The notes beneath the pieces were generated by a model. That model searched no databases. It worked only from the letters and a program-made list of their open reading frames with translations, and was not told the DNA's origin. From positions 1 to 32,923 of the forward strand of contig JAGCZO010000161.1 in NCBI GenBank assembly GCA_017959965.1: a DNA stretch of 32,923 nt, read 5' to 3'. Shown here one piece after another: positions 9,715 through 14,793 of the stretch; position 1 is the first letter of the stretch; the number at the start of each line of letters is the position of its first letter. The stretch is from Clostridia bacterium (lineage in GTDB: Bacteria > Bacillota > Clostridia > UBA1212). The position numbers were made by a program, and so were the translations under genes.

Positions 9715-10683
9715 TCAGATCAGCTCCTCATCCTCGCTGACGCCTTTTCTGTCAGGCTTGAACGAAAGATCGATCTCATCAAGGTTATAAGGCGTGGCCT
9801 GATATACGTAGTAATTAAGCCAGTTTCCGTAAAGAAGATAGGCGTGGGACCGCCATTGGTGAAAAGGCTTTTCGTTAGGATCGTCGTTTGGGAAATAATT
9901 CTGAGGGATCTTAGGGTCAAGACCTTTTTCAACGTCCCTTTCATATTCAAGCTTAAGTGTCTCCCTGTCGTATTCAAGGTGGCCGGATACGAATATCCTT
10001 CTGCGGTCCTTGGAAGCAACTATGGATGCGCCGGCGATCTCGGACATAGCCATTATGTCAAGATCCGGAACTGCCTCAATGTCTTTGATGTCGTTGTACG
10101 TATATCTCGAGTGAGGAATATAAAACTTATCGTCAAAGCCTCTGAGAAGTCTCGCCCTTTTATTGCAGGGATGATGTTTGTATACTCCGGAAAGCTTTTC
10201 CGGAAGAAGCTTTTTCTGTATGCCGTAATGATAGTAAAGGCCTGCCTGAGCACCCCAGCAGATGTGGAGTGTGGTGGTGACGTTTGACTTTGACCATTCC
10301 ATTATGGAGCAAAGCTCCTGCCAATATTCCACCAGCTCGAATTCAAGAAGTTCCACCGGCGCACCGGTGATGATAAGTCCGTCGAATTTGTCGTTTTTAA
10401 CGTCGTTGAAAACCTTATAGAATTCAGAGAGATGGCTGCGGGTAACGTGTTTGGAAAGATAACTTTCAGGGTGCAGAAAAGTCACCTCTACCTGGAGAGG
10501 CGAATTACTGAGAAGTCTGAGAAGCTGAGTCTCAGTGACGATCTTCGTGGGCATCAGGTTCAGTATGGCTATCTTAAGAGGCCTGATGTCCTGATGGAAA
10601 GCCATGCGTTCCTTGATCACAAAGACGTTCTCGTTGGATAATATAGTACTGGCCGGAAGGTTGTCCGGAATTCTTATAGGCAT
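9715..10683 (-). CDS. metA: Homoserine O-acetyltransferase, MetA type
   Basis: It activates homoserine in the first committed step of methionine synthesis. The class I glutamine-amidotransferase-like fold is marked by the nucleophile Cys142 in [15 protein letters not shown] and by [10 protein letters not shown], which supplies the catalytic His/Glu region. Position 111, which decides acyl donor in this family, is Glu (TGAPVE) rather than the Gly of E. coli. That predicts acetyl-CoA, not succinyl-CoA, so it should make O-acetylhomoserine despite the succinyltransferase name often attached to MetA. Length (322 aa) is usual. It has its own promoter (10733-10761) and GGGAG eight nt before the ATG. 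Confidence 0.94.
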
Positions 10684-10732: not shown

Positions 10733-10761
10733 ATTATAAACGAACCGGCGCCGGTTTTCAA
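10733..10761 (-). promoter_or_regulatory. Promoter of metA with palindromic spacer
   Basis: On the minus strand TTGAAA (10761-10756) and TATAAT (10738-10733) are separated by 17 bp. The -35 box overlaps the surE stop codon. Nearly all of the spacer is the 14-bp perfect palindrome AACCGGCGCCGGTT (10743-10756), a possible repressor site. The leader to the metA ATG is only about 45 nt, too short for an S-box riboswitch, though it contains a small GCGC...GCGC stem. Confidence 0.65.
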
Positions 10762-11489
10762 TTAAATGTCATCTCTTCGTAAGCCTTATAGTCGGTCCTT
10801 CGGGTGGAAAGAGGAGTCACCGAGCAATAGCCAAGGAGGACCGCGTCGATATCAACGGAAGGATTTATAACAGTCTCCGGCGACCTGGCAAGGGTATACT
10901 CCGCATAATACATATTGGGCTCCTCCGCGGGCAGGAATTTGTCCTTGTAATATTCTCTTCCCTGGGTAGTAAGAAGGATGCCTTTTGGCTCCGGCGGAAT
11001 GTTGACGTTAAAGATGCCGCAATGGGAAAACGCATCTTTTGAAAGGAGATAATCCCAAACAGGTCTCAGGTATTCGGCCGCCTGCTTTATATGTTTTGAT
11101 TTTGCGGAAAAAGCAACCGATCTCACTCCCGAAAGGCCTGCCTCAAAGCAGATCCCGCAGGTGCCGGAGTAGGAAATATCGTTGCCGATATTGAGGCCGC
11201 TGTTGATCCCGGCAAACACAAAATCGAATCTGTCCGGGAAATAATCCAAGGAAAATCTTACGCAGTCCGCCGGCGTGGCGTCGATCCTGTAGGCCCTGGC
11301 GCCGATATAGTCAAAAGTATCCAGTTCGACCACTTCAAAGGGTCTGTCAATTATAACGCAGTGAGATTTCGCGCTCTGCTGATATTTAGGCGCGGCGACA
11401 GTGACTTCTCCCAAAGAGGAAGCAAATTCGGCAAGATATCTTAGGCCTTCCGCTTCTATCCCGTCATCATTGGCAACAAGAATCTTCAT
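10758..11489 (-). CDS. surE: 5'/3'-nucleotidase SurE
   Basis: This metal-dependent phosphatase acts on nucleoside monophosphates and is linked to stationary-phase survival in several bacteria. The family's metal ligands are visible: the adjacent Asp pair in ILVANDDGIEAEGL, Ser in YQQSAKSHCV and Asn in FAGINSGLNIGND. The GTCGICFEAGLSGV segment is also conserved. Length is 243 aa, close to the usual 250. AAGGGA lies 8 nt before the ATG, and the gene follows nrnA by 42 bp. The two form a small nucleotide-salvage pair. Confidence 0.93.
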   Translation of the reverse strand: MKILVANDDGIEAEGLRYLAEFASSLGEVTVAAPKYQQSAKSHCVIIDRPFEVVELDTFDYIGARAYRIDATPADCVRFSLDYFPDRFDFVFAGINSGLNIGNDISYSGTCGICFEAGLSGVRSVAFSAKSKHIKQAAEYLRPVWDYLLSKDAFSHCGIFNVNIPPEPKGILLTTQGREYYKDKFLPAEEPNMYYAEYTLARSPETVINPSVDIDAVLLGYCSVTPLSTRRTDYKAYEEMTFN

Positions 11490-11531: not shown

Positions 11532-12512
11532 TCAAAAATATTGAGGATTATTTTTCTTGAATTCCGAATGGCAAACGTCAAGATCACGAATAAATCTTTC
11601 CATTTCGTCGGCGGAACGGATGGTGGCTCCGGCTGCGCAGGCATGGCCTCCTCCGGAATAGTTTCTGGCGATAGGTTCGATCTCGACGAACCTTGACCTA
11701 ATCCTGGCTCTGAAAGTACCGTCCGGATTCTCAATAAGGACAAGCCATATGAGGCTGCCTTTAATGTTTTCAATGATCTGCGTGGAATTGTAGGCTGTTG
11801 CCTGAGTAAGATTGTAATCCGACATTATCTGATTTGTGATAATAATATAAGCTACGCCTGAATCAGTCATCTTTAAATGGGAAACAAGCCTGGAATCGTT
11901 AATGACGTCAACGTAATCCTTAACATCGATGTAGGCGTATATCCTCTCATAGTCGACGCCAAGCTCAAGAAGCTTTGCGGCAAGATTAAGAGTCTTAGGA
12001 GAGGTCCCGCGGAATCTGAATCTACCCGAATCAGTAACGATCCCTGTATAAAGGCATTCGGCCGCTTCCTTTGTGATCACAAACTCGTCTTTAAAATCAA
12101 AGAAGAACTCGGTGATCATCTCGCAGACTGAGTTTCTGTGATCCTCCACCCAGGAAAAATCACCGAATTCGCCCTCTTTGATGTGATGATCTATAACGAC
12201 AAGCTCTTTTCCCTTCAAAAAGTTATCGGAGGATACCCTTTTCGGAACACCCGTATCAAGCACTATGACAAGCGCGCCGTTAAGATCCGCTTCCTCAGGG
12301 AGAGCGCCCTCGCTTCCCAGAAATGCCACCTGATCAGTCTCATCCTTCCTGTCTATGAAAACTCTTTTACAGGGAAAAGATGCCTCGATAACTTTTTTCA
12401 TCGCCAATGAGGATCCGACCGCGTCTCCGTCAGGTCTTATATGACGGCAAAGGATTATCGTATCGTATTCCTTTATCTTATTTAAAATGACCGTTTTTAT
12501 GTTTTCATTCAT
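11532..12512 (-). CDS. nrnA: DHH/DHHA1 phosphoesterase, NrnA-like
   Basis: Probable bifunctional oligoribonuclease / 3'-phosphoadenosine-5'-phosphate phosphatase, which finishes RNA decay by degrading very short oligonucleotides. The DHH domain has RHIRPDGDAVGSSLA, a VLDTG motif and the name-giving VIDHHIKEG. The C-terminal DHHA1 domain carries the substrate-binding GGGHACAAGATI. Length (326 aa) is typical. The ATG at 12512 has a weak GAGAGA ribosome site. It is the first gene of the leftward run. Confidence 0.9.
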   Translation of the reverse strand: MNENIKTVILNKIKEYDTIILCRHIRPDGDAVGSSLAMKKVIEASFPCKRVFIDRKDETDQVAFLGSEGALPEEADLNGALVIVLDTGVPKRVSSDNFLKGKELVVIDHHIKEGEFGDFSWVEDHRNSVCEMITEFFFDFKDEFVITKEAAECLYTGIVTDSGRFRFRGTSPKTLNLAAKLLELGVDYERIYAYIDVKDYVDVINDSRLVSHLKMTDSGVAYIIITNQIMSDYNLTQATAYNSTQIIENIKGSLIWLVLIENPDGTFRARIRSRFVEIEPIARNYSGGGHACAAGATIRSADEMERFIRDLDVCHSEFKKNNPQYF

Positions 12513-12666: not shown

Positions 12667-12695
12667 TTGAGAAACATAGCCGTATTTATTATAAT
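12667..12695 (+). promoter_or_regulatory. Promoter of the M50-like gene
   Basis: TTGAGA (12667-12672) and TATAAT (12690-12695) are spaced by 17 bp, followed by CAGGAGG and the ATG at 12727. This is divergent from the nrnA promoter about 100 bp away. Confidence 0.75.
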
Positions 12696-12726
12696 CTAAA
12701 CGATCGATCGATACAGGAGGATAAAA

Positions 12727-13434
12727 ATGTTAGGTCTGTTCAGCGTTGAGTCATTAATGGCGATGCTTCTGTCGGTTCCCGGCGTCATATTTGCTTTCAC
12801 TATGAAAGGCTTCGGTCAGGCCCTTGTGTCCAAATGGCTGGGCGATCCAACCCCCGAGGACAACGGCAGGCTGACTATGAATCCCCTTGCCCATATAGAC
12901 TGGATAGGCCTTGTGTGCATGGCGGTATTCGGCTTCGGCTGGACAAAACCGATGCCCACCAACAGCAGATATTACAAGAACTACAAAAGGGACACGGTCC
13001 TTTATTCTCTCAGCGGCTCAATGACTTTGGTCCTTGTAAGCTTTATTATGGCGTTTTTTCACGTTCTGTTTTTGAATCTTACTTACAGAGCCGCAGAAAC
13101 GGTAGTCGGAAACGTCTTTTACTACATCACACTGATCTTTTACTACGCACAGAGATATCCTCTGATTCTGGCTTTGTTTTATCTGCTGCCCCTGCCCGGT
13201 CTTGACGGGTATAAGATCATTACCACATTCACGCCCTACAAATGGAATACATTTCTCTACAAGGTGGAAAGATACAGCATGTTTATATTCCTGGGTTTTA
13301 TTTTGCTTATGAGGTTCACTGTGATAGGGGATTACATATTCTACCCGGCGATAAAGCTTTCAGAGCTGTTTGATTTATTCTGGCAGATGCCGCTTGGCTT
13401 CATATCCGGCTCCACATTAACAGGAGCTCTTTAG
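12727..13434 (+). CDS. M50 (site-2 protease) family homologue lacking the HExxH zinc motif
   Basis: A polytopic membrane protein of 235 residues with the YwhC-type M50 layout. After the first helix come a conserved LGDPTPEDNGRLTMNPLAHID segment and FGFGWTKPMP; the later helix carries LLPLPGLDG with Asp160, the usual third zinc ligand. In active members the first helix reads HEFAH just before the LGD segment. Here the aligned residues are Lys27-Gly28-Phe29-Gly30-Gln31, so both zinc-binding His and the catalytic Glu are gone. It is probably a non-proteolytic membrane binder, by analogy with inactive rhomboids (inference). AGGAGG six nt before the ATG and an intact frame argue against simple decay. 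Confidence 0.85.
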   Translation: MLGLFSVESLMAMLLSVPGVIFAFTMKGFGQALVSKWLGDPTPEDNGRLTMNPLAHIDWIGLVCMAVFGFGWTKPMPTNSRYYKNYKRDTVLYSLSGSMTLVLVSFIMAFFHVLFLNLTYRAAETVVGNVFYYITLIFYYAQRYPLILALFYLLPLPGLDGYKIITTFTPYKWNTFLYKVERYSMFIFLGFILLMRFTVIGDYIFYPAIKLSELFDLFWQMPLGFISGSTLTGAL

Positions 13435-13440
13435 ACAACA

Positions 13441-13487
13441 AAAACCGTCCTTGGGAACAAACGAAATCCCCGGGACGGTTTTCTTTT
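13441..13487. terminator. Bidirectional intrinsic terminator
   Basis: AAAACCGTCC and GGACGGTTTT form a 10-bp stem, flanked by an A run on the left and a T run on the right. A further GGG/CCC pairing can form inside the loop. It lies between the convergent M50-like and DD-carboxypeptidase-like genes and can serve both. Confidence 0.88.
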
Positions 13488-13506: not shown

Positions 13507-14793
13507 TCAGTATTGCATCAACCCTAAAAACTCAAGTATCTTTCTCAGAAATCTGACGAACCAGTTGGCCCTGTCCATATCCTCGTCAATGATAAGGTCA
13601 ACACTGCCGATCTCCTCGTACCTCTTTGTTCCGTCGGGCTGGGCAAAAGCCTTCTGGTAGACCACCTTTCCGGCGATATCGCCCTTGGAGACAGGCGCCT
13701 CAATGACCCCGTCAAGAACTATCTTTTTCTCGACCGTATATTTCTCATTAGTATTGGCGATATAGTCAATTGACTGTCCCGTAACGGTCTTGACCTTGAG
13801 GGATTTTCCGTCCTTGACGGAGATCATTCTGACGTATGTGCCTTCCTTGTCAAGCTCCTTCCATTCAAAGACCTTGGAAGTCATATCCAGAAGGAACTTG
13901 AGCTCGCCGGCTCTGTCTTCGGGAGTTTTCTCGCCGATGACAACGGCGACGGTCCTCTCGCCGTCAATAAGAGCCGACGCGGCCTGAGCGTAAAGGTCGG
14001 CGGTGGAATAACCCACAAGCAGACCGTCAGCGCCCTCCAACATACCTGAATAAACCAAAGCGTTGGAGCTTTGCATATTGGTGTCAGGCTGGCCTGTAGA
14101 CGAATGTACGAACGTGCCTGAAGTTATACGGGTGTAATTCAAAACGGCCGGGAAATCCTTTATAATGCGATATGAGAGCATACAAAGGTCGTAGGCACTG
14201 GTATACTGACCGTCGGTTATGATCTTGATGCCCGTGGAATCAACGTAATGGGTGTCGTTAAGGCCCAGGGCGGCCGCCTTCTCATTCATTTTCTCAACGA
14301 AAGCGGCTTCATTGGAGCCGGAAAGATGCTCCGCCAGGGCATAAGCGGCGTCGTTGGCGCTGCCGGCGATTATGGCTATGATAGCCTCCTCGACTGTTAT
14401 GACTTCTCCCTTCCCGCTGTCAAGAAAGACACGTTCTCTGCCAACGGAAATGTTCTGAGCAGCCCTGGAGACCTTGACGCCTGATTTAAGACTGGTCTTG
14501 CCGTTTGAGACCGCCTCAAAAGCCAGGTACAAAGTCATCAGCTTGATAAGATTTCCGACGGAAAATCTGTCGTGGCAGTTATCACTGCTGAAGGAGACCT
14601 TTCCCGAGTCAAAATACATTGACGCATAGGCCTTCGCCTTCATTTTGCCGAGAGAAGCGGAGGACGCCACGGAATTGGCCTGAGCCTTGCTGAAGGCATA
14701 GGAATCGGTGGGCGTTAAGGGGATCAGGAACAGACCCGCCGCGATAACGACCGTTGTTATAAAACAGAGAATTCTTTCAAATTTCTTTTTCAT
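13507..14793 (-). CDS. DD-carboxypeptidase (S11)-like protein with degenerate active site
   Basis: The family trims the stem-peptide D-Ala of peptidoglycan outside the membrane. The 428-residue protein has a signal peptide/anchor (about residues 8-25), a PBP5-like transpeptidase domain, a PBP5 C-terminal beta domain, and an amphipathic tail (WFVRFLRKILEFLGL) fit for membrane binding. Two of the three penicillin-binding motifs are altered. The SxxK box is Asn81-Leu-Ile-Lys84 (GNLIKLMT), so the acylated Ser is missing. The KTG box is Leu259-Val260-Gly261 (DGLLVGYS). The SxN box is kept as Ser145-Ala-Asn147. It should not acylate beta-lactams or cut D-Ala-D-Ala. No clear ribosome site precedes the ATG, so the start is less certain. 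Confidence 0.87.
   Translation of the reverse strand: MKKKFERILCFITTVVIAAGLFLIPLTPTDSYAFSKAQANSVASSASLGKMKAKAYASMYFDSGKVSFSSDNCHDRFSVGNLIKLMTLYLAFEAVSNGKTSLKSGVKVSRAAQNISVGRERVFLDSGKGEVITVEEAIIAIIAGSANDAAYALAEHLSGSNEAAFVEKMNEKAAALGLNDTHYVDSTGIKIITDGQYTSAYDLCMLSYRIIKDFPAVLNYTRITSGTFVHSSTGQPDTNMQSSNALVYSGMLEGADGLLVGYSTADLYAQAASALIDGERTVAVVIGEKTPEDRAGELKFLLDMTSKVFEWKELDKEGTYVRMISVKDGKSLKVKTVTGQSIDYIANTNEKYTVEKKIVLDGVIEAPVSKGDIAGKVVYQKAFAQPDGTKRYEEIGSVDLIIDEDMDRANWFVRFLRKILEFLGLMQY

Follow-up and report, generated by a model that had tools for sequence, protein, structure and literature searches.

The gut-bacterial gene at positions 12727..13434 (forward strand) of the window, the 32,923-nucleotide stretch of Clostridia bacterium DNA analyzed here, encodes a 235-aa homolog of the M50 (site-2) proteases in which the HExxH motif has been lost, and this loss is real. 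At the level of sequence comparison, the HExxH helix is shown to have lost all its zinc-binding and catalytic residues, and the LDG helix its Asn, with a basic-Gly-aromatic-x-Gln motif fixed instead; the remainder of the membrane protein is shown to be under purifying selection, which extends to the LGD..G.LT.NP..H block and to the Asp of LDG. The protein is very probably unable to cleave other proteins, and it is highly probable, judging from these patterns, that it is kept for a selected non-proteolytic function. The best explanation overall, which we regard as probable rather than secure, is that of an intramembrane pseudoprotease whose non-proteolytic role is conserved and whose zinc would be replaced by a basic residue beside the Asp that is kept.

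The frame is intact, as reported in the initial annotation of this DNA, starting with an ATG and ending with a TAG, and it is preceded by a sequence for a ribosome-binding site (AGGAGG, 12715..12720, +) and by a sigma-70-type promoter-like site (TTGAGA-17-TATAAT, 12667..12695, +), recognized by consensus match only (11/12). The scan gives about as many promoter-like matches as chance would (3 found versus 2.2 expected in shuffles), so the site at 12667-12695 is weak evidence of expression, and the original description of the gene as well expressed is not borne out. On the 3' side of the stop codon lies an inverted repeat with perfect 10-bp arms and a T tail (AAAACCGTCC...GGACGGTTTT, 13441-13450 / 13473-13482, no strand assigned), which was read directly, as the hairpin scan covered loops of 3-8 bases only and this repeat therefore fell outside its output. 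It is likely a terminator, possibly one common to the M50 gene and the converging gene for a D-Ala-D-Ala carboxypeptidase (Peptidase_S11, DacF-like; 13507..14793, reverse strand; Pfam 1e-39). Divergent from the pseudoprotease gene are genes for a DHH/DHHA1 (NrnA-like) phosphoesterase (11532-12512, Pfam-checked), a surE-like gene (10758-11489) and a metA-like gene (9715-10683), the latter two named by appearance, and the order of these three is kept in two other genomes of the same genus.

In the column alignment with relatives, residues K27-G28-F29-G30-Q31 (KGFGQ, codons 27-31, 12805..12819, +) stand where the relatives possess HEFAH or HEYAH, just as the initial annotation had proposed. A scan of the whole 235-aa protein finds no second HExxH, as its only histidines are H56 and H112. 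Both the HExxH and the LDG motifs of site-2 proteases have been described, and NxxPxPxLDG has been proposed as a substrate-binding motif (PMC9672952). The equivalent of the latter is YLLPLPGLDG (codons 152-161, 13180..13209, +, by alignment to relatives), in which the Asn is lost (Tyr152) and the third-ligand Asp160 of LDG is kept. Two membrane Asn residues that are invariant in active relatives, at positions 101 and 145, are likewise lost. LGD at positions 38-40, then GRLTMNPLAHID, is present, and the conserved block LGDPTPEDNGRLTMNPLAHID (codons 38-58, 12838..12900, +) is common to active and inactive members, with L38, G39, D40, G47, P53, and H56 invariant in both inactive clades recognized below and in the active rows. 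The LGD block and Asp160 are as originally described; the losses of Asn at positions 101, 145, and 152 went unmentioned there.

The Pfam model PF02163 scores 16.1 bits on the window protein, below the curated cut-off of 27.2, and therefore membership in M50 needed independent proof. The same model matches 21 of the 24 orthologs of the order with E values no higher than 0.1 (1.9e-06 for the best), and it matches 24 of 24 HExxH-bearing active relatives. Comparing the profile of the 24 orthologs (the window protein included) with one built from 24 HExxH-bearing Clostridia M50 proteins, hhalign reports a probability of 100 and an E of 1.6e-62 over 217 columns, pairing the KGFGQA segment with HEFAHA, and it is this profile-profile match, together with the trees and the common gene order, that secures the homology. 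The window protein and the short HExxH Clostridia M50 proteins are also similar in length and in helix pattern. The AlphaFold model of the window protein is confident (pLDDT 88.9, pTM 0.85) and has as its top solved-structure match in the PDB the Methanocaldococcus jannaschii site-2 protease (3b4r), itself an active zinc protease; the Foldseek match has a probability of 0.87 but is weak in similarity (E 0.18, TM-score just 0.33). 3b4r also comes first for a control model, that of an active relative (probability 1.00, E 0.012, TM 0.46).

As to the age of the loss, 31 genomes of the order were sampled, of which 24 carry the gene (the window protein counted), and these orthologs, spanning five families and 34-74% identical, include none with HExxH at the catalytic site, whether in the genus, the family or the order (0/24); a recent mutation in a single strain is thus rejected. 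Since HExxH is found neither in an ortholog nor elsewhere in the protein, the reading offered in the initial annotation, of a homolog deprived of the ligands of its zinc helix, stands on both counts. The conservation of the K-G-F-G-Q motif, for which that annotation had asked, is seen as Lys or Arg at position 27 in all 24 orthologs (16 Arg, 8 Lys), Gly at position 28 in 23 (Ser in one), and Gln at position 31 in 21 (Glu in two, Lys in one). Asp160 is present in 24 of 24; position 152 is occupied by Tyr, Phe, His, or Leu and never by Asn, versus Asn in 28/28 active rows; the Asn residues at 101 and 145 are lost across this inactive clade too; and Ser96 is found in all of its 24 members, versus Ala in 27/28 active rows. 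The 24 orthologs form one fully supported clade in two trees, the second of which was built without motif columns 27, 28, 31, 152, and 160, and the support with these columns removed is 100/99. The nearest two named records are both metagenome-assembled genomes from rumen projects (Clostridia bacterium JAFSVU010000026 and uncultured Ruminococcus sp. CACZNV010000163).

All 24 reading frames are intact, and dN/dS is 0.08-0.19 over the five ortholog pairs with measurable dS (L061/L087, 0.076 by NG86 and 0.107 by YN00; L059/L086, 0.099; L053/L055, 0.118; L048/L049, 0.144; L050/L051, 0.185), a range that comes from other orthologs, as every pair containing the window protein is saturated in dS. Together with the conserved replacement motif, these values bear out the proposed selection for a non-proteolytic role, whose exact nature we infer below. 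The seven genomes of the 31 in which a copy is absent are mostly incomplete, but two of them are 91-95% complete, and therefore the gene may be dispensable.

Losses of HExxH are also apparent elsewhere in Clostridia. Our comparison set of 117 Clostridia homologs from outside the order favored close matches, so that the following counts are not frequency estimates: HExxH is kept in 86 of the 87 homologs sampled outside both the order and one genus, g68, and in 15 of the 30 sampled from g68. Related families keep HExxH, the Asn and LDG. Most of the g68 losses belong to a second inactive clade, of 14 rows (L187-L190, L192, L193, L202, L203, L206, L208, L212, L213, L215, L216; support 100/98), with the motif QGY[AGS][KR], Ala or Val in place of the Asp and, as a rule, an intact Asn; this clade and HExxH-bearing orthologs occur within one genus. 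Two single losses, L196 (G441, HSYAK) and L141 (G128:C439, HSFVQ), are placed among active sequences in the tree, and possibly represent intermediate stages of active-site loss. Parsimony on the tree gives four state changes, and on this reconstruction there are at least three further independent losses in Clostridia beyond the order of the window protein. Replacement of Glu with Gly is common to two of the four events, and the same two replaced one His with Gln and the other with Lys or Arg, in mirror order. A single step in the genetic code leads from His to Gln or to Arg, and likewise from Glu to Gly, so that this parallel is partly expected. Asp160 is kept wherever residue 27 is His, Lys, or Arg and is lost only in the clade with Gln27, a co-occurrence that rests on four events.

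Gene order tells of the same ancestry. In most of the genomes examined from the class, scpA and scpB come after the HExxH gene, and ytfJ and a D-Ala-D-Ala carboxypeptidase gene often follow; the arrangement '<scpB <scpA M50> <dacF' is identical in inactive f5/f6 genomes and active f30 ones; therefore the orthology is positional too. A dacF-like neighbor adjoins the M50 gene in many relatives, active and inactive; in the genus of the window protein dacF remains beside it and scpAB do not adjoin; and in g68 no homology to scpA, scpB, or dacF is found in flanks of ~1.5 kb, whether the copy is active or inactive. No active paralog of the subfamily was found in the genome of the window protein, where the one other M50 match at the Pfam level is RseP-like (HEWGH), on another contig. 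A few genomes of the order encode proteins of a different M50-like type, of ~390-400 aa (L185 and L186), with HExxH as VIIHEAGH or VIIHELGH. Loss of sporulation as the cause is unsupported, the Spo0A_C domain being present in 28 of the 31 genomes sampled and SASP or YtfJ genes being located near some of the pseudoprotease genes. A gene for a small acid-soluble spore protein directly adjoins the pseudoprotease gene in related genera, at L053:6755-6946 and at equivalent places in g3/g4 genomes. The best Spo0A_C matches in the window's own genus are in short frames of ~136-167 aa (e.g., G000:C49:15364-15675), most of the order's other genera having longer frames, ~260-310 aa.

In the scenario that we propose, the window gene would be the vertical ortholog of the short Clostridia M50 gene beside scpA-scpB and dacF, and a single conversion in place, no later than the base of the order, would have given it its present state. 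The resulting pseudoprotease would no longer cleave peptides, and its retained S2P cleft would hold a membrane partner, perhaps a former substrate or a partner in a complex, with a binding or regulatory action akin to that of iRhoms and Derlins among rhomboids; the chances that the protein is a partner-binding scaffold appear to us evenly balanced. The buried Lys or Arg at position 27, with Gln31, would take the place of zinc and neutralize Asp160, and the core helices would be held without a metal. An ion pair between residue 27 and Asp160 is suggested tentatively by the pattern of substitutions, and Asp160 could also be retained for helix geometry alone. Two of the loss events founded conserved clades, proposed to be long-lived, one of them covering a whole order. 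It is conceivable, if somewhat doubtful, that short M50 proteins of Clostridia have repeatedly and in parallel turned into pseudoproteases, via Glu to Gly or Ser, His to Gln, and His to Lys or Arg, forming a widespread bacterial, metal-free class of the S2P fold, in which a basic side chain would stand for zinc in the membrane, with a common non-proteolytic function.

The recurrence of the losses could be read differently, with the short M50 proteins beside scpAB/dacF having had a structural role from the beginning, catalysis being an extra that could be dropped and the old function being kept. The independent losses in Clostridia, numbering at least four (the order, the g68 clade, L196, and L141), with the gene intact each time, are in line with such a role, as is the conservation of the LGD..G..NP..H block in active and inactive members. 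Nevertheless, the 86 of 87 sampled homologs that keep HExxH outside the order and g68 imply that catalysis is strongly selected in most lineages, and simple dropping of catalysis would not require the replacement motif itself to be conserved; we consider this reading rather unlikely.

Regulation of RseP, with the pseudoprotease competing with it or assisting it by binding the membrane substrates of RseP, is another proposal, by analogy with the iRhoms, which provide a precedent among rhomboids (PMC3149277), and RseP is the sole other M50 protein found in the genome; its gene being on another contig, linkage lends no support, and the proposal seems to us improbable. The distribution of Ser96, in 24 of 24 members of the clade versus Ala in nearly all active rows, could hint at a hydrolase of new chemistry, with Ser96 and the basic residue 27 as a different catalytic site, but Arg, a poor general base, occupies position 27 in 16 of the 24, and no other known catalytic motif is present, making such an enzyme very improbable. 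The genome being a draft with 8.35% estimated contamination, an assembly artefact or a decaying pseudogene might also be considered, but the same gene, in the same state and with the same neighbors, is found in independent genomes of the genus, and the intact same-motif orthologs in 24 genomes, with their low dN/dS, refute either, leaving them next to no probability.

The closest known proteins are the short HExxH-bearing M50 proteins of Clostridia (PF02163; 'YwhC-type' in the initial annotation), which have in common with the window protein the profile, the tree, the gene order, the LGD..G.LT.NP..H block, and the LDG Asp, but which keep HExxH and the Asn of NxxPxPxLDG, both replaced across the order of the window protein. 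Derlins are rhomboid pseudoproteases that keep the fold of an intramembrane protease without catalysis. iRhoms are likewise rhomboid pseudoproteases, and bind partners (PMC3149277). The likeness of both to the window protein is one of logic only (fold retained, catalysis gone, partner binding), as they are eukaryotic, of an unrelated fold and of another catalytic class. Another example is EGY3, a chloroplast S2P homolog of Arabidopsis that, like the window protein, lacks HExxH and has been described as proteolytically inactive (PMC12389704). However, EGY3 is a plant paralog beside the active EGY1 and EGY2, whereas the window protein has no active paralog found in its subfamily, and its inactive state is fixed throughout an order of bacteria. 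Intramembrane pseudoproteases as such are thus already known (iRhoms, EGY3), but no description of a conserved bacterial M50 pseudoprotease, nor of an order-wide conversion in place with recurrent parallels, was found in the open-access literature searched.

Overall, annotation of the M50 proteins of this order by homology would mis-state their activity. That catalysis was lost naturally and repeatedly while the gene was kept offers a direct route to the non-cutting roles of these proteins, and the same losses pose the question of whether a Lys/Arg-Asp pair may replace zinc in the core of a membrane enzyme.
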